64,000 nt of DNA, taken from positions 24,365,399 through 24,429,398 of the forward strand of contig NC_052394.1 of NCBI RefSeq assembly GCF_009389715.1. The letters are read 5' to 3'. This document shows, piece by piece, positions 1,709-30,400 of the stretch. The position numbers and the translations under genes are program-made. Source of the stretch: Phoenix dactylifera (taxonomy: Eukaryota; Streptophyta; Magnoliopsida; Arecales; Arecaceae). The notes beneath the pieces are model-generated. The model was not told where the DNA came from. It made no database searches and was given only the letters and a program-made list of their open reading frames with translations. How positions within the stretch are numbered: the stretch's first letter is position 1; every line of letters starts with the position of its first letter.

Positions 1709-4521
1709 CTCAAGCCTAATAAGAACATTTCGGTTTTGCAGAATCCGTCTGTCCCATTCAGCTATTGCAGTTGCCTGCTTTTGAAATTTGGCTGTCCGCT
1801 CTTGTAGCTCAGAATTCCAGTCTTTGAGAATCTGCAACCCCCAAAATAAAATAACTTGGCTAGCAAAATAAAAAGATTTGCCAAAGATGGTTTAAACCAA
1901 AAGCTTTGATAGAAGATAGAAAAAGCAATTATTCCTAATATTATGCAAATTTGTTTTCGAAATAACAACAATGTGCCATCTAGCCAACCAAGGTAAAGAA
2001 GACAAGGGAGAACACATGACAATACTTTTTCTGCTTCTAGGAAATTTACAGCGAAGCAAGTTTCTGTTTGGCCTATTGCTAGAAGAGTAATAACTCTTAT
2101 AAGATCAGTACCTCTCCAGCAGTTTTGCCAGGAATCTCTGATGGTAACTTGGGTGCTTGGGGTGTCAGCGAACTTGTTGTAGAGCTAATGGGCCTACAGT
2201 TCAAATATTGAAGCAAAACAATGGCAAATGTCAGAAGTTAAATTACCTTCAGTAAACCAGCTGCTAAATGTTTCAATGCAAAACTAATATCTAGAGCAAT
2301 TGATCTCTCTCTCTATATATATATAGACACACACAAACCCGCCACTACTAGCTTGAATGCTTGAAGAAGATGCTTGAGTTGTGGTGGAACTGGAACTCGA
2401 TGCACTTGCTGATGCTGTAGTGGAAACACCTGACAAAAAAATGGATTTAAATTTAAGCATCTACATCCTAATAAGCATATTTTGCATGCCCATCTCCAGC
2501 CAACACGAACAGTATATTTACCAATTATCATGTCAAAACAAATCAAAATGGGTGCCATTGGCAAGCACTGACCACAGATACCAAATAACATCACTCAAAA
2601 ACCGATTCTGCATAGGTATGACCTAAATTACCTAAAAAGAATGAAATAGAGATGGCTTGAGTCATTGCACCCGGAAAAGATGAAGTAAATGGAAACCTAC
2701 TGACAATTAGAGAGTACGTGAAACAACATGGAGTGAATTGGATGGCAAAAGACTAAGTCAATAAGTCTCCATATGACATAGCAACAAGAATCAACAGGAA
2801 ATATCAAACAATACATACGAGATGCAAGCCAGCAATGAATAAATGGAAAAGAACGTCATCAGCTGCATCATGTTTGTCAAGTAAGTTTTTTTACTTTTAT
2901 TCCTTTAAGTGCCAAGAGCTATGAAGAAAGCACGACAACTAATAACAGTTAGACAAATGTAGCAGATAATAATAACTAATAATGCAGAACTTTGGGGAGA
3001 GCCTGAAGCTAAGTCACCCCACATATACTAATATAAGCAGCAAATTTTAAGAAACCCGGGCAGAATTCTTCAGATGCAGCACAAAGGGTAAGCTGTGATC
3101 TTTGAGGAAAAAGGTGAACCACAGATCAACTCACCAAATGCTGCAGCAGCAGCTGTGGATTGAAGTGGAGATGATTTTGTTGTCGATGCGGGTGAGGAGG
3201 CAGTAGGTAGAACAAAACTAGGAAAAGAGCTGGACCCTGGAGTGCTGGCAACTGACGTCACGGCTGCGGGCGTAGCAGCCGCTGCAGAAGTCGAGGTGAA
3301 TCCTAAAGCAGGGACAGAGGGTGTAGCTGCGGCGGAAGTGGAGGCTTGTGAAGTGAACAGCGAGGGAATTGAGACAGGAGGAGTCGTGGTTGCTGCTGTA
3401 GAGACTGTGACACTTGTGGCTGCAGCCGTTGCTGCTGCTGAGGATACAGAGGACATGGAAGAAGAACTGAAGGATAAAGTAAAGGATTTGGCACCTCCGG
3501 TGCTGGAGAAGGCTGCTGGAGTAGATGCAGCCGAAGCAGTCGCAGCAGAAGAAGCTGCATGGACGAAGCCAAAGGAAGGCTGGGAAGCCGATAAACCAGA
3601 TGGTGTCGATGACAAGGCAGAGGTCGTGGCTGGTGCGGGTGCTGATAAAGGGGTAGCGGTTGGTGGTGCAGAGCCCTTGGAGAAAGACAAGCCGCTTCCG
3701 AAAGAGAACGAAGGGGTTGAAGAGGAGGAAGATGAAGAAGAGACGGCGGAGGCGGAGGAAGATGATGGGAACAAGGAAGGGAAGGACGGGGCTAATGTTA
3801 TTGCTGAGGAGGAAGAGGGAGCGAAGGAAGGGAAGGATGGAGTGGTTGCTGTCGAGGACGGAGCAGAAGAGGCGGGAGCACCGAACACCGGCGAAGCGGA
3901 GACCGATGGGGCCGCAGCCGAAGAAGAGGAGGAGGAGGAGGAGCTGGCAGAAGAGGAACCGGACCCAAAGAGGGACGGAGACGAAGCGGACACGAAACTA
4001 GGGCTTGGAGCGGAGGAGGCGGAGGATCCGAATCCGAAGGGGGGAGGCGACGAGACTGACCCAAAGAAAGGGCTCGGAGTGGAGGAAAGCGCGGCCGATG
4101 ACGAGGAGGATGCGGAGGATCCGAATCCGAACGGGGAAGGCGACGAGACTGACCCAATGAAAGGGCTCGGAGTGGAGGAAAGCGCGGCCGATGACGAGGA
4201 GGGGGCGGAGCCAAAGGAGAAGGAGAAGGGTTTGGAAGCGGAGGCGGCGGCGGATCCGGGAAAAAAACTAGAAGCGGGGGCAGTTGATGAGGCCGCTGAG
4301 GCGCTGAGAAACGACGAGCCGAAGGGGGAGGAAGGGGCGGAGGAAGGCAAGGAGGAGAAGGAGGAGAAAGGGGCCGAAGAGGATGATGGAGCCTGGGAGA
4401 AGGAAAATCCCTGGTTCTGGGAGGATGAGGAGGAGGAGAAGGAGGACGACGACATCGTCGAGGGACTGAAGGAGAAGCCCGACGACATGGTCGAGGAACT
4501 GAAGGAGAAGCCCGACGCCAT
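1709..4521 (-). CDS. NUP62: Nuclear pore protein NUP62-type FG nucleoporin (partial; 3' part beyond the window)
   Basis: This is a central-channel nucleoporin of the Nsp1/NUP62 family, which builds the permeability barrier of the pore and anchors through a C-terminal coiled coil. I model exons 4521-3135, 2429-2339, 2193-2112 and 1831-1709; every junction is GT-AG and the phases agree. Exon 1 (about 462 codons) starts at the ATG at 4521 (MASGFSFSS). It is a Ser/Ala/Pro/Thr-rich low-complexity region with scattered FG, SFG and GFGS motifs. Exon 4 encodes ILKDWNSELQERTAKF and AIAEWDRRILQNRNVL, the start of the conserved Nsp1_C coiled coil, and this makes the family call firm. The rest of the coiled coil should follow at lower coordinates; I could not identify those exons in 1-1708. 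Exon 1 contains a 93-bp in-frame duplication. The long open frame on the opposite strand of exon 1 is a compositional shadow. Confidence 0.9.
4025..4208. repeat. 93-bp in-frame tandem duplication in NUP62 exon 1
   Basis: The word ggcgacgagactgaccca occurs at 4046 and again at 4139, and the flanking sequence is nearly identical over the whole 93-bp period. This adds 31 codons without changing frame. Both copies encode an AALSSTPSPF(I/F)GSVSS block followed by a PFGFGSSAS block, so the duplication adds FG motifs. Confidence 0.85.
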
Positions 4522-4727
4522 CGCCGATTTCCCCACTCTTCCGCTGCTCCTCTATCTCGCTCGCTCTACCTCCGGTTATGGAGGGTTCAGGTTTGGGGGT
4601 TTTATGTTTTGGAGTTTAGACCCACCGGGTTCGAATTTCGAAACACTACGGCGAGCCGTCTTCGCCAAAAATGGTTAACTGGGACGCTGCGATTTGCTCT
4701 GATCCGTGAAAGATAGATCCATGATTT

Positions 4728-8900: not shown

Positions 8901-11900
8901 ATGGCTCCGAGAGGAAGGTCGAGGAAGGTACGCATCTGCACCCACTAGCTGGCTCCTGTGGTTGTGCTCTTTCTCCTCTTCCCATCGCCTCGGTTTCTTT
9001 CTACTTTCCCCACTTTGCTTTCTCAATCGTCTTCTTTGGACATGATATTAATGCAGGTAGGACTGAGGCGGATAGACGCCGCCATCGATGCCCTAACCCC
9101 GTTAGGCTTCTCCCGCGAAATCGTATGCAAAACCGTCAATGATCTTCTGAAGGTGCTGTCCCCAGTCTCTCCTCATTTTTCCTTTTTCCTTCCTTATTTT
9201 CTTGAAATCTTTTCTTGGAGCTCTGATGATAGTTTGGGTTTTGGATTGTAGGTCTATGAGGGAGATGAAGGATGGGTATTTCTTGAGGAAGCTTCATACA
9301 AGATGGTCATCGAAACCATCCTCAACAACCAAGAGGAAGAGGAAGCGCAGGCGGGGAGGGTAACCATCTCTCAACCCCTCTACACATTCCTCCTCCGTCT
9401 CCTTTGCTTTGCTTTGCTTCTCTTCTTTTCTGTTTTGCTTTTCTTCTTCTTCTTCTTCTTCTTCCTCCGTAGATTCCACCTGAAGGTTTATACCTCTTCA
9501 TTTACATGCTATTTTTTTTTGTTGCTCCGATTTCTGTAAACTCTTGGATATCGTATAGTGTGGTTGCTTAATTTTTAAGTCCTCAACGGAGTTCGTTGCG
9601 GCAGAACTTGAGGACACGCCATGCAGCACCTCGATTTGTTAACATCTTTTCTCTTAGATCTTCAATCGATGTGCTCAGTGTGTAATCTGCTCACTTTATG
9701 CCACCAGATCATTACTTTGATGTAAAAACACAACTGGCGTCCGTGTAATATTAGTCGGTTGTTTGTATTTCTGGAGAAGTCAAAATAATTCTACTTGATA
9801 CAAGATGTCCGGTGCTTAGGTCTGAGGTTTTTCAAGTAAAGTGGAGGTTTCGGGTGTTTGTTTAAGTATAATAGAATTGTAGTATATGCTTGTCATGCCA
9901 TCACTGGTGTAAGAATATAGTGTCAACTCTTGGACATGTTACGTGTTCTACCAGGGTTCCTTCATATGTCGCACAAGTTTTTGTTAGCAGCAATTTTTTC
10001 TTTTTTGAACTGATGCATTCAAAAAAACTGTGGTCGGTTCTAGATAAAGCAAAGACTCCTTTAAACATGGTCCCTAACTTAACGGTTTAAGATGATCTTG
10101 GAGCTTGTGTCTATATATTTGAGAAGCTCATATGATAAGATTTCAAGGTATTAGTGTTCTTGTATCAAAGTCCAGAAAAAAACGACTTATGATAATTTTG
10201 CCTGGCAGTTTGGTTAAATAGATGATCTGGTAATATCCATGTTTTAACTTGTATGAATAGGTATTTTTGAACATTCTATTGCAAAACATTCCCATGTCAA
10301 CTATTATGTTGCAAAACTTTTGTATCATATCCTAATTAATTTAGAATTTTTTAAGCAATGTCATGGTTCATAAGGAATTAGTATAATTGGATGTCCACTT
10401 TATAATTGAAACTATGGTGTTTACAGTTGAAATTTGTGTGGAGCATTATGTTAGAAGCTCATGTGGTTCCATAAAATCTATCGTAGAGGATACTTCGGAG
10501 AATCAATTAGACTTTGAGTTTTTTTTTTTTTTTCAAGAAATAAAGGAGGCCAGAGCCACCTCATTTTTTAACCCATCCAACCCCACCTAGGTCAGAATCT
10601 AGGTACTTGGGCTGACCGAGCCTAAGCTCGTAGAAGCAGGATGTATGTAAACGGGGGCTCAGATGATGGCCGATGCCACTCGGAATTGAACTCCACGATC
10701 TCTTGTCTAAGAGGCGAGCTCTAGTACCATCCGAGCTAATGCTTTGTGATGATTAGACCTTGAGAATTTAGGAGCGATGTCTTATAACTTTCTTGTAGCT
10801 AGTGGTTATCGGTTTCTTGCATTTTTTTCCACAATTATCTTCCTCTGCACCTGTGCTCATGCTAATTTGTAGGCAGTAAGTAAACATTACACTGTGGTTC
10901 TTAGAATATCTAGGTTATTGGATCTAAAGGATCTTTTATCTAATCCTTTGTTTGTACAATCTGACATGTATTGTGCTAGTGCTAGGGCTGCGTGCCTATT
11001 GGTGTGCTAGTGCATGCCAAACAGTTGCACACACAGCATATAGGTGCCAACACCAAGCTGTCAAGACACTGGCACATGATGTTTTAATCCAAGAAATTTT
11101 TGTTGTAATTAAGTCCGATTTTGTCTTTAATGTGAAATGAACAGATAAAGCTAGAACTTCTGAACTTTTCCTTTTTAAACCTGGAATGTGAAGCTGTGTG
11201 GAAAAAAAGGGAAAAAAAGGAGAGGATAGTGGGTAAATTTGAGAAAATCACGTGAATTATGAGTATACATCATTGCCTTACTGATTGTCTACCCAAACAA
11301 GTGATTTTACCAGACATCTGCTAGCAAATCACTGTTCTTTTCTCAACCATCTTGCATGTAGAAAGAAAATAGAGTCTGTACTTTTCTGTAAATTCAGTAT
11401 AATTTGTTTAATACACGAGAACGACCCCTTTATATCACATAGGCTCCATCTTAAGATCTCATGTTAAGGCAAATCCTGTTCCCCAACTAGGAATAAATCT
11501 TGTTCCCAGTCAAACTCTTCCATACACACACCCACACACAGAATACATAAAACTGATGTAAATTCAAACAAATAGAAAAGCCAAGACAACGCTGTAGACT
11601 CTCCTCATAAAAGTGACGAGAGGAAAAACTTGATAAAAAGACACCTGTCATTTCAAGCATCCACTCCTTTTTCGACATATCATATACATTCATCTAAAAA
11701 CATTAACCTCTCTACCTTTTAGAAGACGTAGCTTGCTAGAAGCATGGACCCTTTTGATAATGTCCCAAATCCATCTTACTTCTTTATTTTGCATGTTTTC
11801 CAAAGAGAGTTGTGCGCTGCTGCTGGCCCTTCTTCTTATCTACATCTAACAAAATTAAATGATTGTAAGACACAAACAGCGCCCTGCTGATCTTTTTCCC

Positions 11901-14900
11901 TTTTTTAAACCTTATATGTTCATGTGACATGCTTTTTTGACACTATCCTAAACTGCCATAGATGTTAACTTCATATGCTTTAGAAGGAACTGGATTGTTT
12001 CAATTTGATTAATTGCTTGATAGACTTATCATATTTATTTTGTTGTCTATCTTCTTAAAGGAACTTTGACATATTAGTCCTTCTTTCTAAACCAAAGTCC
12101 AAAATGGTTCCCTTTTCTTTTGGGATGGACATCTAATGCCAAATTTTTGGTCATGAGACAAAATAGCAAGGAACGTTCAATTGACCTAAACTGGGTGGTT
12201 CGGCCCGTACTAAACCAAATTGACCCTGGCTTGGGATGGTTCAACCGTTTGTGTCGGTTCATTTATAAAACCTTCCCCACCCTATTCAAGCGAAGGTTTG
12301 AGAAATTTCGACATCCCTCTTGCTCGCCCCCCCCCCCCCCCCCCTCATTGACATTGATCGGTGCCTCTTTCCACTCTTCGACGCCGACCAGTGCCTCTCT
12401 CCTCTCTTCGATGTTGGCCGATATTGTCAGGTAAACCATCGTCTCTCTCTATCTCAATGAGTTCCATTGCTGCTCCCTCTCCCCTCTTCGATGCCGACTG
12501 GCACCGCTCCTCTCTTCAATGCTTTGGTCCCTCTCTCCCCTCTTCAACGTCGCTTGACACCCAAGTTTGCCCCTCCCTCGCTCTCCCTCCCTCTCCTCCT
12601 CCCTCTCCATCGCTCTCTCTCTTCTTCCTTCTCCCCTTCCCTCTCCTTGTTTTGGTAAACACCGGCACTACATGGTACGAACCCCGGTTCCAGTTCCGCA
12701 AACCTTAAAAATAGTGTCCATTGTCCAATTATTAACTAGCTCTTTTAATATTTTCTATTTAATAATGATAATAATCTTGATTTTCCTGCTATTCCAATAC
12801 CAACTTCTTGGATGAATGATGCACTCTCCAGTCTCCTTTCCTTCCAGAATTTTGTGTTATATTCATAGAAAATTAAGGTTATAATTATTGTTAAACAGAG
12901 AGATTTAAGAGATTTAAACAGAATGGCAGGGGCTGCTTTGTCTCAATTTACCAAAAAATAGGAGGTAGATTCTTTTTTCAGACGAAATAGATGTAATCAG
13001 AGATCGGTTTGGAAAGGAGGGACAAATATGTCAAAATTCCTTTCTCATATTGCATCATGTGTGGCTATTTGGACTTCAGAGTTGCATTCTTGTCTAATAT
13101 TGAAGCCTCTTTCATTATATAAAGAACTGCTCACCAGCATTGTGCAAGGAAAATAAGTTTTAGTTGGATCTGGGACTTTTTTAGGTGCAATAGTTTCAAC
13201 TGAAGCTATTAAGTTCAAATCTAATTTTGGACAGTTTTAATGCTTTCAATTAAAGTTGGAATTGACTGAGGTTCCAAGTTTAAAATTGTCATCAAGCAAT
13301 CAATGCCATTTTTGGGCTATTTCTTCATTTGATCGGGTTAAGAGGGGTGATTGATTCTTAGGTGACTTATACAACTTTTGAATATTCTTTTTTTTTTTTT
13401 TTTGTGAGAGAGTGACCCACATAGTTACCCCAGGTCCAGATTTTCAATGATGCACCACCCAATATTCATTCCCTGGCATCTTTGGTTGCTAAATATAAGT
13501 GTTCTACAACTGGAGCAAGCCCCAGTTCATAATCTGAGGGAATGTTTTCTTAAGTTCAAACCTAGATTTTATAGGTTTTGAGAACATTGGTGCCAAGAGG
13601 AATACGAAAAACATATTTCTTCCCCCAAGCTTTAGAGCTTGGAACATGCAGTAGGTGATATTGATTTTATATTGTTCTAGTTGAGTTTCTTAGGTCGAAC
13701 CTGAAAATTTTGGGCTTGCTTTGGACCAGCTTGGTCCAATTCTTGTTCATTTTTTCTTTTGAGGTTTGTGGAAGTTTTTTAGATATTTTTTGAGGATAGT
13801 GAAGAGAAAAGGGATCTATGGTGTATATTAGGCTCTATAGGATTCTAGGTTGCACTTCCGTGCTCAAGTGATATACACATTTATATTCTCATTTTTTAGA
13901 GTGGACACTTATGAATGTTATGGAATTATGCCTTTTCTTGAATATTAAATACTTATAATTTTTTTAGGTTTTTTTGAAGATAAATAATTTTGAGTAGAAC
14001 CATTACCATTTACACCCAATGTCCCAACAGAGCAATATAATATAGTTTGATTCTTTTTCTGTTTGTTTTTTCTAAATATTTCTTCATTCTTCATTTTCCA
14101 TTTTTGATATTATTATGATTGTTAATTTATTATTATTATTATTATTTCAGCTGAAGTTATCGAACCAAGAACTTGAGCACTTGAAATTGTAAATTATTTA
14201 ACCCAATTTAAACCAAGATGTTGGATCTCATATATCACTGACCAGCCAAGTTACCATGCTTGCTCAAGTATAATAAAGGCTCTTTTATTGTCTGAATTTT
14301 GCACAATACAGATTCTTGATTGTAATTACTAGATTTATGAGTCACCCAAATAGAAGCTGGCTTGGCAAATTAGAAACTCCAGGTCACAAAACTGTCCATA
14401 TAAATGTTATTATTGTCCATTCAAGATTCTTTGTAATCATGGGTGCTAAAACCTGAAAAGGTTGTTCTGTGAATTTATTTGTATGTAGGATTCTTGATAG
14501 CCATGGGTGCTCAGATCTGAAAAGGTTGTTTTATGAATTGATTGGTGGGAGAAAAAAGAGTAGCTGAATAGTAGACCAACAACTTATCTTCTTTTTGAGT
14601 CTAATTTACAGTATGAAATGGTAGCCTAGTATATTCGGTACTGGAATGCACTTAACTGCTACAGTACAATCCTTTTAAGAAAGTTACCATGCTTACGAAC
14701 CTCTATTTGCAGATGGAGATGGTGGTGTGGTAGTTGTGCATATGTGCAAATTCAGTTACTGTTCCTTTTTTTCTTCTGAGCTGTAATGCTCTGAAAGTTT
14801 ACGATAAGTTCTGTATATCTTTAAATGTTGAGATCTTTGAAAGAGTGAATACATTTTCTTGTTTTAAATTGTTTCTGATTGTTAATCTGAACAATAGTAT

Positions 14901-15691
14901 AATGGGTTATGTTACCTATGGTGCATGCTGATATGTTTCTTCTTAATTACAAATATTTAATGCTATCAGGAGGAACATAAAGTGAAAAATGAGGAAAGAA
15001 CTGCAGAATATTATGAGGCTGGTGAAACAGTTCCTCATCATGATGTGCTGTCAAACACACCTCAATTTGGTGGGTGTTTTCTTTTTCAGTTCTTTAATGA
15101 CCTCCATGCTTGTATGAAATTATAAACCAATAATGCTTCTGTTTTCCAGGGGGGGATATTGATTGGAAGGATATTTCTTGTGTGGACGGATTAGGGCATA
15201 TCTTGGACGGTCAAAGTCAACCTACTTTGACTTCACATGAAATAGACCAACCCAGTGGTCGTCCCAGGCAAAGGCGTCCATGTTTTGGCTGGTTAAGTGA
15301 AAGTGAGGAGGAAAATGAAGCGGAGGAGCCTGAGGGTGAAGATCAATCAGGGGAGCCTCCAATTAATTCTTCTATTGTTTATCTGGATCAGGAAATGTTT
15401 GAATTTGCTGGGAGCCTGCATCATGAGATGAAGAGGGAGCCTCCACGTAACGCATCTTTAATTTATCAGAAGCAGGAAGGGGTTGACTTTTCTGGAAGTC
15501 CACATCATGAAGTGAAGCAGGAGTCTCCAAGTAATGCTTCTATCATTTATCAAGAAAAAGAATCGGTTGGATTTGCTGGAAGTCTGTATTGTGAAATTAA
15601 ACAGGAGCAGGAAGAAGTTGAATTTGCTGGAAGCCTGCATCGTGGAAGGAAGAGGAGAAGTGGATGGGATGTCAAACATTCTGATATGTAA
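8901..15691 (+). CDS. WIYLD-domain protein with C-terminal tandem repeats
   Basis: Five exons: 8901-8927, 9057-9152, 9252-9359, 14970-15069 and 15150-15691. All have GT-AG junctions and matching phases, giving 290 residues. Residues about 10-70 (VGLRRIDAAIDAL, GFSREIVCKTVNDLL, EGWVFLEEASYKMVIETIL) are a WIYLD domain. That domain is known at the N-terminus of plant SUVR histone methyltransferases, where it binds ubiquitin. No SET, pre-SET or zinc-binding region follows, so this is a stand-alone WIYLD protein and not a methyltransferase. After an acidic stretch (SESEEENEAEEPEGED) the C-terminal third carries about 3.5 copies of a 27-28-residue repeat. It ends in a basic tail, RGRKRRSGWD, so a nuclear location is likely. 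Intron 3 is 5.6 kb and holds a SINE, microsatellites and repeat debris. No partner or pathway can be read from the neighbours. Confidence 0.82.
10519..10751 (-). mobile_element. tRNA-derived SINE in intron 3 of the WIYLD gene
   Basis: Read on the minus strand, the element has an A-box-like TTAGCTCGGATGG (10727-10739) and a B-box-like GAGTTCAATTCC (about 10682-10693). It ends in a 15-base A tail (T15 on plus, 10519-10533). It is flanked by 13-bp target-site duplications, attagactttgag (10506-10518) and attagaccttgag (10752-10764), with one mismatch. An internal pol III promoter, an A tail and a TSD together define a SINE. The TSD mismatch suggests it is not very recent. Confidence 0.85.
12175..12715. 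repeat. Repeat region with C-tract and CT-rich minisatellite
   Basis: The region begins with GGTTCGGCCCGTACTAAACC-like sequence. An 18-base C run follows at 12327-12344, then loosely repeated units of the form CTCTTCGATGCCGAC(C/T)GG (about 12370-12560), then CT-rich sequence. It ends near GGTACGAACCCCGGTTCC. Short open frames here are compositional artefacts. Confidence 0.5.
15330..15670 (+). repeat. Coding tandem repeat (about 84 bp / 28 residues)
   Basis: Successive copies align on the residues E(P/S)P-NAS-IYQ-(q/k)E-V-FAGSLHHE-K(R/Q). The peptide FAGS or FSGS appears four times, followed by H(H/R) or YC, then EMKRE, EVKQE and EIKQE. The last copy is truncated. The repeat keeps the reading frame throughout. 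Confidence 0.85.
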
Positions 15692-17826
15692 AAGGCTATG
15701 AGTTCAAGTCTTGGGTGGTGCATCCCCAAGATTTTGGAATCTGGCTAATTACAATACCAGCTGGTTCTTTTGTTCTTTAAATAAAACAAGACATTAAAAG
15801 GTAAGATGATGTTAAAATTCTTGTTGTTTGTTTGCTAGCAAACTGTTGTAAGATGCTAATCTGCTTCTTGGATAAAGGAAGTTGGTGTATTCAGTGCTGA
15901 AATTCTCTGTTTGTTTTCTTTTATTGCTAATTAATATGTTTGTGGTCTTTAAACTTACTTGGTGCAAGCTGGTTCAACTTGTGTATGAAATATTTCTTGT
16001 TTGTTATTTGTAGAATTGTTTTGTCAGATCATCATATCCTCCTAAGAGAAGAGCAGCTCCTATTATTCTAATACATTTTTTAACTACTGGCAATATTGTT
16101 CTTCTATGTGGTATAAGCAATGAATTGTTTGCTTGATTTATCAAGAGCACACCTTGGTGTACTTTATTACGTTATGCTCTCTCATCTGTTGTTAAGGAAA
16201 CCTCATTCAATGAGTCAGCTACTTGACATATCCAGTTTCGTGGAATGTCAATGTCATATTTTTTGAAACTCAGTAATCTACAAATTTGTGATACAATGTT
16301 GTAAATTGTGATCTTGGTGGATACACAGAAGTAGTGCTTGCAACTGGAGCTCCTGTATGATCCTAGTCCTAGCTGACTACAATACCATTCATCGCCCTTG
16401 TCAGGATCCTATTTGCTGCCAGACTAGTGGTAGGATAGCAACCTGGGAAAAAACCTGCAATACTTTGAGCTAGGAATTAGCGTTTGCCAGATTGACCAGA
16501 CCTGACCTGATCGGCTGATCCTGTTAGAAATTAGGGGTTTTCAGATATGGTTAATTTTGTAGGGACTAGAGCTTTGACTGGACTCAGGTCATGAGGGCAG
16601 AAACTTATTTGGGTTGAGACATTTTGGGTCAGGCTGAGCCATGACCTAACGTGAGGGTCTTGTGAGTGTTTTTTATTTTTCTTTAATATAATAGTGGTTG
16701 TTTAGTTTATCGTGGAAATGAATCATTAGGAGTTGTAAGGATTGGATTAAACACATTAGATTGGTTAGTAAAAACTATTGACACTTCTGAAATGCATCCT
16801 ATGTTTGTATTGAAATTTTAACTCAATACCAGAAGCTCCAATAGTCTATTTGCATAAAATGAAGTAAATGTCAAAAATCTAAGAAGTTTATAGAAAAAAT
16901 AATATGCATGCAAGTTCTCGATGGCTCACATTTTTTCAGCATTTTTGAAAATAAGACAACGTGGTGTGTGAATGTCCTGTGTTCTATAACCATTTGGAGG
17001 ATTTCAGTCATGACTGCTGCTTGGATCCTGGAGAGAAACAAGAGTATTTTCAGATTGTGAAGGGTGAATTGAGTATCTGATTTAGCTGTGCAGCGCTGTC
17101 CCTCATGTTCACCATCCTTGTGTTCTGAATAATGGTAACGAAAGCAGAGATGACAGAAAATTCATCTGTAAGGTACGCAAGAAAAGCTATTCAACTTATG
17201 AATCTAGGCAGGCTGTGCTACAGGAGAACTGATGGTTTATGGCTTGGATTTATTCAAGGGCACCTAGCATGTCAAAGCAATGGCCTTGGAAGGAACAACC
17301 ATTTCTTGGCAAATCAATGGGCCAGTCAGTGATAGAGATTTCCAAGTTTTTGCCTGCATGGTTGAATGGGATCGAAAAACAAAGAGGTTGGTTGTGTTGG
17401 ACTGCTAGGACATGGGACCTGTAGGCAGGTTTATGCTCTTTGCTTGGGTCTTATATTTTTGGATTGTCTGCTTTTCCTCTTCTGTTGCTTGACCATCATT
17501 TTATACAGGGGCTGCTTCTTTTTCTTCTTTTTTTTTTTTTTGCGCGCGCGCGCGCAATTTAACTTGTAGCTTATAGGTGTTTCACATAATAAACAAATAA
17601 CTTTCTTTAGTTTAGTGCAGTCTTGCTCATCTTCTTTTGTTGCTTCACATATTAGCCATCCTATCACTTTGTTTCTAGATCAATTATGATTGGAAATCAA
17701 TGTTTCAAGGCTTATGACTGTTTTGGCAACATTTTTCTTTTCGCAGCATAGATGGCAAGATGGACATGGAATCAACTTAAGCCGAGATACAACCACTGAC
17801 ATAAGACACCAAGGCTACCCAGAATC
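15692..17826. other. Intergenic region downstream of the WIYLD gene
   Basis: AT-rich sequence with no supportable gene. The first 100-200 bases are probably the 3' untranslated region of the WIYLD gene. A (CG)n run follows a T tract at about 17527-17555. Short open frames at 17132-17424 show no recognisable domain. Confidence 0.55.
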
Positions 17827-19021
17827 TTATATCTTGTTCACAAAAGCAGCCTCCGCAAGATCAATAGCTCCAGCAAGAGCTGCAGCCTTGTTTTCACATT
17901 CTCGCTGCCCATCATCTGGAATGCTGTCAGCCACGATGGCAGCTCCAGCCTGGAGGTGCGCCTCCCATTCCTGGTGCATGCCCTTATCCTTGTATGGAGA
18001 CATTGTGTTGTAACGACTTCCAGTCGGGGAAGACGATAGTTCGCAGAGCAAGCGCAATGTCCATGTCACCAGAAAATGACACGCTGCCAAAACCACCACC
18101 ATGGGGACCTCGCCTCTTGACCTCCAACCGATCAATTAACTCCATGGCCCTGACCTGATTCAACATGGAAGCAACATCTTAAGCAGTGAAGGCATTATAA
18201 GAAAAGAGAGGGAGAGGGTGTACTCAGCTGGCGACCAATCAAGACAGAGATAGCTGGATCAAAATTAAATGCTCATGAGCGACAGACTTCTGATGCCGTG
18301 AAACAAACAACAAATACAGATAAAGCCTAGGAAGTGTATGTAGATTGCATTTTTTGCAAAGTTTTTGGTTAAAGATGAATGAGTCTGTATGAGGTCCCAA
18401 GGAGCCCTGGACGACTAAACAACCACAAACATACTGCTGCTGCGTAGAGAGCGACAAGATTAATTTGGTTTTGAATCTGCCACAAGGCACCCTGGAAGAA
18501 TTGGTAGGGTCATTTCTTCATAATCCAGTCAACAAAATATTTGGAGAATGAATGATGGGGAAATTGCTAGACAAATATTTGTATGTTAAATATTGATAAT
18601 CAATTTTATAAAGATGGCCTGACCCAAAGTTGGTGGAAACATCTTTCTAGCATCAACTATTAACTGCAACTAACTTTTTGCAATGAATGGTATAGCACAA
18701 ACTGAAATTAAGATTTCGGAACAATGGAAGTTTAAAAGATGGTGCGTATGAAGTCAGGATGCAGCTTACCCAGCTGAAGTGCTGAGTGGGCCAACGTCTG
18801 AGAATACAGATAGTTACCATGCAGATATAGACATTAACAAGAAGTGGATATAAAGAAGCATAATCCGGTCAACATATTAAGTGCGACAAAAAAAGTGTAC
18901 ACACATAACTAACTGCGAACTGGAATAGAGTACTAAACCAAACCTTTGGTGCACCGCTAAGTGTTCCTACCGGCAGAGCAGCACGCATAGCATCCCGGCA
19001 ATTAAGATGATCACACAACTC
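17827..19021 (-). pseudogene. Anthranilate synthase alpha subunit, 3'-terminal fragment with frameshift
   Basis: Two exons match the C-terminus of plant anthranilate synthase alpha (chorismate to anthranilate, first committed step of tryptophan synthesis, plastid). Exon 19021-18944 encodes ELCDHL..AMRAALPVGTLSGAPK. Exon 18154-17827 encodes VRAMELIDRLEVKRRGPHGG, FSGDMDIALALRTIVFP and LQAGAAIVADSIPDD, ending AAFVNKI. The 789-bp intron between them is intact (GT..AG), so this is not a retrocopy. Three defects are visible. No upstream exon is found. An in-frame TGA (19024-19022) lies immediately before ELCDHL. One extra base in the GGGG run at 18026-18029 shifts frame after RTIVFP; the next frame continues correctly with TGSRYNTM. 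Most likely this is a truncated duplicate. The single-base insertion could be a sequencing error, but the missing 5' exons could not. Confidence 0.85.
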
Positions 19022-21893: not shown

Positions 21894-23773
21894 ATGCGTC
21901 GAGGAAAACGATTCAGAGATGTGGAGTTCCAACAGTCTCAGATGGGATCTTCTTCTGATCAGTCCCTGCAGTCCCAGCAGCCCTGTGAGCACCAGCAGCA
22001 CGAGTCCCAATCTCAGCGGGAGCCTCCTGCTCATTACCCGAGAGAGGAGGTTGTTATGGACGACTTACAGATCCAGGGTAATTCGATTTAAAGTTTATAT
22101 TTTAAGTTCTATTATATCTAATTATTTTAATTTATTTGTCTTTAATGTTTTAATGCATATTCTATTTAATTTTAATAGATAGACAAGGGACGGTGAGGAT
22201 GAGACGGGGACTCACTCGAGCAAGGGATGTCTGGCAGCCTCATGAGGGTGACAAGATCGTCGTCCGATGCAACGAATTGGGGCAGCCCATCAAGAGGGCT
22301 GGAAGTCTTTTATCAAGTTTCTTAGGATCGGTTGTACGCAAGGGTCAGTTGTGTCCGCTCAACTATACGAAGTGGAATGAAATGCTTCCTTCATATAAGG
22401 TTGAGCTTCTTAAATTTATACAGGTAATGAATTAAATTTGTTCTTGTTAATTTGATACATCTTGTATGTTAATTTACTTACTATCATAAATTTAATTTTT
22501 GATTTAATATTATTATAACATTCTGTATCTTGGTGTAGGATAAGTTTGTACTTCCTCCAGAGAGCCATGATTGGGTGCTAAAGTTCCTCAACCGCAAATG
22601 GAAAGCATATAAGGCGAAGTTGAAGACGGACTTCAAGCGTGAGGGTATGACAGAGGAGGAGGTTGCTCGTGTTTGTCCTCCTGATATATACCCCCAGCAG
22701 TGGAGGGAGCTTGTTCACTACTGGTTTTCTGAAAGAGGACAGGTTGTGTATATTGTTTCAATATTTTATATTATATCTTTTAATTAATATGAATTGCAAA
22801 TATATACATTAAATATATTATATTGTTCGCTTTTTTTTGATTTTGACAGGCATATTCCAATATTGGTAGAGCTGCACGAGCATCTCAGGTAGTTCCTCAT
22901 ACTTCAGGCTCGAAGAGTTATGCGAGACGTAGAAATGAATTCGTAATTTTTTTTGAAACTTTTTGAAACTCTACTAACATATAACACGTATCGTAATATA
23001 TAATTTGCCAATATACTCTTCGTGTGTATAGATAGAAGAGCATGAAAGGGAGCCTGGTGAGGTAGAGTTCTATAGTAAGACTTACACCTACCGAGATGAC
23101 AGTTTTGTCCGGAAGGAGGTCAAAGATATAGTTGTATGTATTCATTTTTAATTTGTTCAATTTTTTTATTAGTTTTACTTTTTTTTAAATATTAATGTGA
23201 CTTTTTTTGAGAGAGATAGGACAGGGCTACATCTCTTATTTCAGAGCGTGTCGGAGAGTCATCATCATCCGACGCGACCAGTCGCATCAAAGCTCAGGTT
23301 TTCATTGAATTGATGGGTCCAGAATGTTATGGCCAAGTGAGTGGTTATGGTGTTGGAGTTACTGCCACTCAGTTGTCTGCAGTGAGCCGATATACCCAAG
23401 ATGCCAGACATGTTAGTAGCACTGCAGAGATTTGTAGTCTAAAGACAGAAATAGAGCAGATAAGGCAGAGCTATGAGACAGAGATAGAGAAGATAAGGCA
23501 GAGCCATAAGACCGATATTGCAAAGTTGAAGCAGAGCCAAGAGTTAAAGATACAATCTTTGCAGGATCAGCTTAACCAGATTTCATCTTTATTGCAGAGA
23601 TTTGCCCCTCAGGTAAATAACTAAATTTATTTGAATATTTTATCTAATTATAACATATTTTTATACGAGCATAATGGCTTTTGTATTCTTATTTTCTAAA
23701 GTGTCTTTTTTTTTTCTTGTAGGTTGGTGATACTTCATTTACTCGTGGCGATGATGATGCCATCGACCCCTGA
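21894..23773 (+). CDS. Transposase_24 (Ptta/En-Spm class) plant transposon protein
   Basis: Seven exons: 21894-22077, 22179-22423, 22539-22742, 22850-22942, 23032-23133, 23220-23612 and 23723-23773. All have GT-AG junctions, and the phases sum to 423 residues with no stop. The centre (RARDVWQPHEGDKIVVRCNE, WNEMLPSYKVELLKFIQDKF, LKFLNRKWKAYKAKLKTDF, WRELVHYWFSERGQAYSNIG) fits the plant Transposase_24 family found in CACTA-like elements. Tail segments SGSKSYARRR and EREPGEVEFYSKT also fit. Near the C-terminus are tandem 11-residue units (TEIEQIRQSYE, TEIEKIRQSHK, TDIAKLKQSQE) forecasting a coiled coil. The N-terminus is Gln/Ser-rich. The protein lacks the DDE-type TNP2 domain, so it would be an accessory (TNPA-like) product, not a full transposase. 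A CACTA right end lies 0.7 kb downstream. Confidence 0.82.
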
Positions 23774-24728: not shown

Positions 24729-25255
24729 TTTTTTTTTTTTTTTTGCTAATATGGGTGGATCATACCTGACGGGTACAGCTACATCCAATAAAATCAAAAA
24801 ATAGGATACGGGTACCAAAGACAGCTTCCCATCTCCAGTCCATAAGGTGCCTTCGGAATGACGAGCTACATACGTAGCCACTCAATCCGCAGTACCATTG
24901 GCTTCACGATAGATATGCTTGGTCTGAAAGGTCCATCCATCCCTCACCATAGCCCAAATGTCACGGAGCAAGAGATGGTCGCTGCCGTCACCTCTAGGAC
25001 CCCTCCGGATCCAACTGATAATGGTGGTTGAATCATCCTCTAGGATGATAGACCTGGCCTGTAACACACACCGGGCGTGTCGAAGGTCCGCCCAGGCAGC
25101 TCTCAGCTCTGCACTCGGAACCGAAGTGTCAAATAATTGACTACCCCCAACAACCACAACTTTAGCAGACGGGTCCCAAATAACAAAATCCGCGCCTTCC
25201 CTCGTGCCACCATTCAGGACTGGCCCATCAAAGTTGACCTTGAGGAACTAGGACA
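24729..25255 (-). pseudogene. LINE remnant: RNase H-like domain
   Basis: Read on the minus strand, a frame from 25255 encodes FLKVNFDGPVLNGG, then VVVGGSQLFDTS, AELRAAWADLRHA, IILEDDSTTIISWI and HIYREANGTAD. This is the RNase H-like (RVT_3) domain at the C-terminus of plant LINE polyproteins. The pattern includes the D of NFDG, the E of AELRA, the D of LEDDS and the final D of NGTAD. A TGA at 24884-24882 replaces the Trp codon usual after ANxxAD, and coding resumes as VATYVARHSEG. A T tract on plus (about 24730-24745) is the element's A tail. No reverse transcriptase or endonuclease region is present, so this is a 5'-truncated dead insertion. Confidence 0.75.
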
Positions 25256-27412: not shown

Positions 27413-30400
27413 TCAAAAATCAAAATTCATTCCTTCATTGGTGAAAGGAAAGGGGTAAGGTAGACACACAAGCAGTCCAAACAACAGAACTGCAACACCA
27501 AGGATAGCGTATCTATTTTCAGGTTCGGTGATCTCTTCGGAGAGAGGAGCAATAGGCCCCCTCTGCAAGAAAAATATTAAAACCACCCAATAGAATGCTA
27601 CATCATTGAAAAGTGATGATATCCCCAATAAGGCAAGGGTGACGCTAGTCCAGCGAGCAGATGCCTGTCATACAAGCCAGGTAAGTTATCATTGGTAAGC
27701 AAGCTAGAACAAGTTGAGGGAAAAAAAGTGCGCAATCTCAAATTATCAGCAGAACTGACTGGCACCAATAGCCAAGACATTGGAAACAAGCTCCAGAAAA
27801 CCAAAGTTGGAAACAAAGCGAAAAGAAAGTAAAAGTGCAAATTTAACAGACAACAAGAAAGAACAGATTCAATCAAGCAAATTGCTTTCTTCATGCATAC
27901 CCTTGCTCTAATGCATCTGGTCAAATAGAATGGCCTGTTTGGAAGGCAGCATATTCATGTGATGTCTCCCACATAAGTGGGTGCGAGCGGCAAGGAGGGA
28001 AGATGAAGAAAGTGGAGAGGTTATAGGAAACTATAGATCCTGCTATCTTAAGATTTTGAGGAAACCAGAAATCACCTTTTAATGATCCCGGTATTTCTAG
28101 AAACTTAAGATTGGGAAAGGAATAGCCTCCACTAATTCCTCCCATCTCTCTCTTCATTTCCACTACTTTGTAATTCTCATAGATGCAGGCTATATATATA
28201 TATATATAAGGGATGATGGAACACCCAAGAAGGCCTTAGAGGTAAACCATGTGCTTGGATAAAATTATGCCAGGTAATTATAGGTGAGCTCAAGTTTTGC
28301 ACCTTACTTGTAACTACTTGATTCCTTGCTTTCAGAGTGAGAAGATTAACTAACAGCTTACCATCACCCCCAGATCAATTTATCATTTCTCACGCATTCA
28401 TTCCAGGATATTAAAACATACGATAGTCCCAGAACATTAGATGCTGTAATAAAGATCTAAATACTTGTGAGGGAATCTTATGTGAAATAACAATGATAGG
28501 AGTAAAGAGAGTAAATTAAACTAGAGTAGAGATGTGCCAATAAGGAGGTTATGAATTGACCAAACTAGTATGGGCATGCCAAACAATAAACTGTGGTCAT
28601 AACAAGTAGAGTAGCCCAGATTAGTGAATGTTTGCAAGTGGGAATAGCGAAGCTTAAGGCAATCTCAGCGGAAGTAGCAAGAAAAGATATGCAAAAGTTA
28701 TCAGTAAAGATGTAGTTCTTGAAAGGATTGATTGTTGAAGAAGAATGTATAGATCCCACAGAGTAGATGAGGCTTGCTGGTTATAATTCTAGGCACTTAT
28801 CATAAACTAAAATCTATATCCAGCACAAAATAATGTAGGATTCATAAGGCCATTATGCCACCAAACCATACTGCTGCCCTCCAGAACTTCTCCCTGGTAT
28901 GGTTTTTGGACCATAAGCACAAGGTCAAGATGTAAGCTTGCACACAAGAATATCTGAATACAGAAGGCCAATAAGCAGGCCATGCCCTCAAATCTTAAAG
29001 AGTATACCTTTCTTCCCCATATTGCAAATGAAATCCGGCCACCATCAAGCTCTCCTGCAGGAATGCTGTTGATAGCATTGATAAGAAGCCCAGCCCAAGC
29101 CCAAAGAACAAGTGGGTTGATAGATAATGGAGATCCTTCTTTCAGAACCTCTCCAAGAAGAAGCTTAGCTGCACAACCATATACGAAACAAAAGGTCTTA
29201 GCTCTCACCAAAAGGTTGTCATACGTACAATATGTTTCAATAGTTAACATAAGTACTGCAATTTACTGAAGTGTTTTAGTTTTGACCATTTATCCAAACA
29301 TGAGGGAAAGTACATCTGATGTTCATTTTTGACTAGAAAAGCTCTACATCTATTGAAGAAAATGTTACTTAGTTCGAAGGTCAATGCTTGAATAATTAAT
29401 ACTAGAGCAAAAGGAAAAAAACAGAGAATAATTCTTGTTTTTACTTGGATTCCGAACTCCAGTCAGATAGGAAACAGATTATGCAATATATGTTTGGCCT
29501 TGTGATTCCTAAAGACAATCAACATGAGCATAAAATAGTGGTACTTGCATGTGATACAAAATATATGCAAAATACTAGTCCATCTTTCTCCCCACTATTA
29601 TCATGGAGAAAGACACTGACAAAGGAAAAAAAAATCAGCCATCCAGTGAAAGGGAAGGAATCAGAACCAGATGGCATGAAGCTTAGAAAGCAGATTATAG
29701 CAATATGGCTTGTTTCTGCCAACCCATGCATGCGAACATGAATCATGAACCCAGAAGGGGAAGGAAGGGAAAGAAGGGTGTTGGGGGTGAGGGTGGGATT
29801 GTGTGCAGATGGAGATGATAGAGGGAGTGATTTGGATTGCTGAAATAGGAGAAAGTACTTACCAATACCTCCAGCAAGGAATGATTCATGAAAGACAGCT
29901 GGGTCAACCACAATACCAATGCCATCAGCAGGAGGTAAGATGAACCCCAGTAGCAGAAGAACAAATCCCACAGAGAACCCAGCCAAAGGTCCAGCAGCTG
30001 CCAGCTTGATAAGGTCCTCACGGTTGGCTACGATACTGAGAATCCTTGTGATCGCACCAAAAGATCCTGTCTGCAACCAACCAACTGATGCATAACTTTT
30101 TATATAAGAGGATATTTGAGATTCATGATATTAGATGATCAATGCTTTAAATCCAAACTTGAATTTTAGCAAGCTAGAACTTGAAGGGCAAAAATCATAT
30201 GTATTGAGGGCAAGCAGGAAGTTTTCTGATGAAAGATAGGCAAAATTACTACATTATGTTTGGTATCAATGGCAATAGCCTAGCAAAAGTGACTTGTTGA
30301 CACAAAAAGATGCCAGAGACTTTTTACAGATTGTTTCGAACTTTCAATTCCAGAAGCTTACCTATGACTCGTTTGATTGAAAGTCAAATTACCTAGAGCA

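Follow-up and report, generated by a model that had tools for sequence, protein, structure and literature searches.

A probably SET-less WIYLD gene of Phoenix dactylifera with an in-frame tandem-repeat tail that could carry SUMO

The closest described relatives of the gene considered here are the SUVR1/2/4-type methyltransferases, in which WIYLD, PreSET and SET are combined. With SUVR4, the WIYLD domain binds ubiquitin and aspartate D74 is required, its equivalent in SUVR2 being D52, and SUVR2 carrying either L32A or D52A still restores silencing (PMC4260354). A different type of comparison is with RNF4, which has several SUMO-interacting motifs (SIMs), the likeness being in the idea of several SUMO contacts per chain. 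For WIYLD proteins that are without SET, no functional description was found in the passages of the WIYLD literature consulted. Of two other papers, one has, among alfalfa flowering-time SNPs, a SNP located in a gene with a WIYLD domain (PMC13291374), and the other places a WIYLD gene of sunflower in the same network module as genes for ribosomal proteins (PMC8974994).

The window, meaning the whole 64-kb stretch of DNA analysed (C3:24365399-24429398 of a 773-Mb genome in 2391 contigs), contains a five-exon plant gene on the + strand (8901-15691) for a protein of 290 amino acids, all four introns of the spliced model being GT-AG (Table 1). The join across the third intron (5.6 kb, 9360-14969) is a putative one, made from splice sites and frame only. 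That a WIYLD domain lies upstream of the repeats, as the original prediction had it, is borne out in the spliced gene, where the domain (Pfam E=1.3e-20) scores 73.4 bits against a PF10440 cut-off of 27, covers profile positions 2-61 of 61 and is the sole Pfam domain of the protein. SET-like patterns, sought as regular expressions, are absent from all six frames of the window, and by those patterns no Pre-SET plus SET arrangement of the SUVR histone methyltransferase type lies downstream of the domain within it. The plant gene is most likely intact and codes for a WIYLD-only protein without SET. None of eight pattern matches in IMG/VR, and none of 59 in prokaryote genome contigs, was confirmed as a relative, as one would expect with a plant gene. 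Single-sequence comparison with the PDB gave no WIYLD structure, the one match (E=0.51) being due to chance.

Table 1. Positions of features of the WIYLD gene in the window, with those of its sister gene on another contig
Feature	Position	Strand	Remark
Exon 1	8901..8927	+	MAPRGRSRK; spliced model, GT-AG introns
WIYLD domain, aa 9-70, two introns inside	8925..9338	+	PF10440 E=1.3e-20
Exon 2, WIYLD first half	9057..9152	+	spliced model; Pfam; own-genome profile match
Exon 3, WIYLD second half and acidic linker	9252..9359	+	spliced model; Pfam; own-genome profile match
Exon 4, linker	14970..15069	+	spliced model
VKNE, psi-K-x-E match outside repeats, aa 82-85	14982..14993	+	
Exon 5 including stop codon	15150..15691	+	open frame 15134-15691; spliced model
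RRPCFGWLSESEEE	15272..15313	+	common with the C113 paralogue, which ends there (RRPPCYGWLSEEED, stop)
Repeat copy 1, 28 codons, EPPINSSIVYLDQEMFEFAGSLHHEMKR	15353..15436	+	
IVYL then D, copy 1 patch	15374..15385	+	sole repeat patch matching SIM consensus
MKRE, copy 1 psi-K-x-E	15428..15439	+	
Repeat copy 2, 28 codons, EPPRNASLIYQKQEGVDFSGSPHHEVKQ	15437..15520	+	
LIYQ, copy 2 patch	15458..15469	+	SIM consensus not matched
VKQE, copy 2 psi-K-x-E	15512..15523	+	
Repeat copy 3, 28 codons, ESPSNASIIYQEKESVGFAGSLYCEIKQ	15521..15604	+	
IIYQ, copy 3 patch	15542..15553	+	SIM consensus not matched
IKQE, copy 3 psi-K-x-E	15596..15607	+	
Truncated copy 4, 17 codons, E-(11-codon gap)-QEEVEFAGSLHRGRKR	15605..15655	+	spacing 51 vs 84 nt
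AATAAA, polyadenylation-signal-like hexamer 3' of stop	15780..15785	+	
Sister WIYLD gene on C113	312073-323755	-	exons found 323755-323660, 323576-323349, 312237-312073

Elsewhere in the window, several open frames on the - strand are recognizable to varying degrees. One of 493 amino acids (3073-4551), FG- and Ser-rich and by eye FG nucleoporin-like (NUP62), has no Pfam match at E<=0.01, and a 93-nt tandem repeat (4012-4210) overlaps it. A C-terminal piece of a chorismate-binding enzyme (17830-18177; PF00425 E=0.0038, below cut-off), by eye anthranilate synthase-like, is split over two reading frames, and either a pseudogene or an assembly error would account for this. An RNase H-like frame (24885-25247; PF13456 E=3.5e-12) is probably a retroelement remnant, and at 28810-29262 a Peptidase_M50 match (E=3.6e-6, just under cut-off) is by eye like an EGY-type plastid site-2 protease. 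On the + strand, a weak Transposase_24 match (23220-23621; E=0.0034, below cut-off) stands amid weak matches to coiled-coil families.

In the genome at large, a profile search gave five matches at four WIYLD loci, numbers that are lower bounds in that the search was six-frame and blind to introns. Besides the window gene, matched in two exons, the loci are one on the minus strand of contig C113 and two, on contigs C17 and C2, that have the domain in one exon and RFINH downstream, a feature of SUVR genes. With these two SUVR-like loci, the window protein has in common W49, Y57 and L40 of its N-terminal WIYLD domain; it differs from SUVR-type proteins in SET, of which the window has no pattern, and from these two loci in the splitting of the domain over exons. 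The locus on C113 is the one other split-exon WIYLD gene found, its domain being 73% identical to that of the window gene and split at the same position. The portion of its protein found has 162 amino acids with the first exon not settled, and its join across an intron of ~11 kb is a putative one, again from sequence features. Following the WIYLD domain and an acidic linker like that of the window protein, it has DRPRPRRPPCYGWLSEEED and then a stop codon. The strand on which this sister gene lies is without a SET pattern over 52.5 kb; the one NHSC in the same 52.5 kb is on the opposite strand in a short frame and was set aside as chance. Between the split-exon domains of the two genes omega is 0.14 [0.03-0.32], with a dS of 1.38 whose interval runs from 0.76 up to the cap, 5.

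As to ubiquitin, translation of the SUVR-like locus on C2 gives L at position 32 and D at position 52, in agreement with the numbering of SUVR2 in PMC4260354. The window protein keeps the leucine, as L40, but where SUVR4 and SUVR2 have the ubiquitin-critical aspartate it has a glutamate, E62, which aligns with the D of the C2 locus and is also E in the sister. The profile score gains 1.3 bits when E62 is replaced by D and loses 1.6 when it is replaced by A, so the change between D and E is a conservative one. The score alone, however, does not mark this column out, since D is also favoured at two other tested positions (A55D +1.8 and N66D +1.2 bits). Ubiquitin binding by this WIYLD domain is plausible, the glutamate being a mild change, and cannot be assumed.

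Within exon 5, the + strand open frame with its 84-nt (28-aa) in-frame tandem repeat is where the original prediction had placed it, with the hydrophobic patches SIVYL, SLIYQ and SIIYQ and, their lysines 16-20 residues past the patch, the psi-K-x-E sites MKRE, VKQE and IKQE. Three full copies (15353-15604), which align without gaps, are followed by a shortened fourth that was absent from the prediction (15605-15655). The latter is 33 nt, or 11 whole codons, shorter, and the codons missing from it are those with the hydrophobic patch. It has RKRR in place of psi-K-x-E and so keeps the lysine, K27 of the unit, without the psi and the following E; patch and psi-K-x-E are thus each present in three of four copies. 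K and E are included in the 11 of 28 columns that are invariant in copies 1-3, and six residues (E1, E14, F18, G20, S21 and K27) are identical in all four copies. All copies lie in a tail of ~125 amino acids past the motif C[FY]GWLSE. No Pfam model matches this tail, nor does any in NCBIfam, a prokaryote library, match exon 5. By FoldIndex, a crude index, the tail is at -0.10, just under zero and weakly disordered, vs +0.14 for WIYLD. Among repeat copies mean dS is 0.69 [0.32-1.76] and omega 0.43, with a bootstrap interval [0.14-1.05] that extends to 1 and leaves constraint on the tail unproven. We infer a largely disordered, mildly constrained appendage.

By sequence psi-K-x-E, the SUMO acceptor consensus, is matched at four sites, three of them in copies 1-3, against 0.65 expected in shuffles of the whole protein (P=0.0025). 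However, three of these sites descend from a single motif by duplication of the unit and count as one event; when collapsed in this way the chance of a psi-K-x-E per unit is 7-10%. The consensus is also common in proteins without SUMOylation (PMC3443746), and among yeast meiotic SUMO sites only 14.26% match it (PMC7924959). The sister protein, in the 162 amino acids found, has no psi-K-x-E. Another candidate reading was rejected. A phosphorylation-dependent form of the SUMO motif, psi-KxExxSP, is known, and copy 2 approaches it with VKQESPSN, in which the final proline is not in the right place.

Such considerations bear on the possibility that the tail grew in neutral or near-neutral fashion, like a minisatellite, with SUMO-like motifs that arose by coincidence and were copied along with the unit, and with the tail serving as a spacer only. 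The chance of 7-10% for the single event, the reach of the omega interval to 1, the shortened and decayed state of copy 4 and the absence of the tail from the sister are all in keeping with it, but the copies have diverged (dS ~0.7) with the frame still open, over a third of the columns in copies 1-3 have not varied, and mean omega is 0.43. On balance neutral growth is rather unlikely.

Pooled pN/pS is 0.30 for the psi-K-x-E columns, 0.40 for the FAGSLHHE core, 0.53 for the patch and 0.86 for the rest of the unit, in a comparison that involves few sites and copy pairs that are not independent; together with the residues identical in all four copies, this gives the unit the look of uneven constraint. 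Column permutation in copies 1-3 gives P=0.14 with K and E alone, P=0.26 when psi is taken together with them and P=0.37 for the patch, while the lowest value among the six column sets tested, 0.086, belongs to FAGS; by mean column score K and E alone rank above FAGS (5.0 vs 4.5). Neither SUMO-related motif is significantly better conserved among copies than the remaining unit, and F-x-G-S is equally invariant. The repeat might instead bind another partner via a core, E-x-V-x-F-[AS]-G-S, to which patch and lysine would be flanks. Its E14, F18, G20 and S21 persist in copy 4, where patch, psi and E are lost, and FAGS has the permutation result just given, yet with so few copies that result falls short of significance, K and E score higher and are also identical in all four copies, and the profile libraries searched have nothing for the tail. 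A role of this type is unlikely.

For the hydrophobic patches the comparison is with a SIM core of the form hXhh or hhXh, with h being I, V or L and acidic residues often adjoining (PMC8616421 and PMC3443746). The original prediction had taken every patch to be SIM-like, and here it does not hold: a core with an acidic flank is present in one of three patches, IVYL and the D after it in copy 1, and copy 4 is without a patch. Copies 2 and 3 still have no match when M, Y and F are also allowed as h. Over the whole protein there are two canonical matches, no more than the 2.25 predicted from shuffled sequences (P=0.65), and the second, LLKV, is inside the WIYLD domain; in the found part of the sister protein there is none outside that domain. 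The patches, as judged from their residues, are not supported as a SIM array, and copy 1 would provide at most one usable SIM. Compared with RNF4-type proteins with multiple SIMs, the contrast is that one of four repeat copies here matches the consensus.

It follows that a bivalent SIM/SUMO scaffold is not supported either. The original prediction was of a multivalent scaffold, in which every repeat would contact SUMO by way of a SIM and also bear it on psi-K-x-E, with WIYLD reading ubiquitin. What stands of this is the repeat itself, the presence of a WIYLD domain and the psi-K-x-E sites; the several SUMO-binding patches do not stand, two of three full copies being off consensus and the fourth patchless. 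There are features in its favor: the canonical hhXh core of copy 1 with its acidic neighbor, acceptor sites in three of four copies with K27 and E1 identical throughout and the lowest pN/pS of the unit, and a chance in shuffles of ~0.5-1.4% that both motifs fall in one unit. Set against SIM matches that are not above chance, motif columns whose conservation is not significant (P=0.14-0.37) and a sister gene that is without the tail, they leave such a scaffold very improbable.

C[FY]GWLSE is kept in both split-exon copies, with the sister protein ending at CYGWLSEEED, and might represent an ancient C-terminal motif in this family. Where the sister has its end the window gene has RPRQRRPCFGWLSESEEEN and the protein continues into the repeats. 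In a protein search of the genome with the tail (E<=1, four candidates scored), the window gene is alone among the matches listed, in a search that was not exhaustive given that the motif shared with the sister was not listed. When the repeat part of the tail was compared with the sister's 52.5 kb, the best matches had E>=4.2. Sequence 3' of the sister's stop codon, faintly alignable to copies 3-4, was not accepted as a degenerate remnant of the repeat, with P=0.07 in 2000 shuffles and 28 of 806 control windows scoring as high; the tail may be either a gain in the window gene or a loss from the sister. By the point estimates of dS the repeat expansion would be later than the split of the two genes, with intervals that overlap. 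An extension of this would be that one of two WIYLD-only genes gained, after the split, a SUMO-acceptor array of three lysines spaced 28 residues apart, with the copy 1 SIM in cis. In that particular form the proposal is quite unlikely; if true, a single small protein without SET would combine the recognition of ubiquitin with multi-SUMOylation.

The account we favor, with somewhat better than even confidence, is that the gene encodes an intact WIYLD-only protein whose repeat tail, specific to this gene copy and probably disordered, is a possible SUMO acceptor at several lysines. Duplication of an 84-nt unit in frame generated the three full copies and the truncated one, SCE1 could conjugate SUMO to the psi-K-x-E lysines K205, K233 and K261, and an adaptor that probably reads ubiquitin via WIYLD could in this way also bear several SUMO tags.

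As the evidence stands, one short degenerate motif that is duplicated together with its surroundings can mimic a designed array, and the locus is a modest curiosity and not a new signalling scaffold: the tail could carry SUMO, with little sign of SUMO binding. The window gene and its sister do, nonetheless, document SET-less WIYLD proteins. Were the tail SUMOylated, one gene copy in a ubiquitin-reader family would be a clear example of a tail that accepts SUMO and arose through tandem duplication, for which the tail-less sister would be a natural control.
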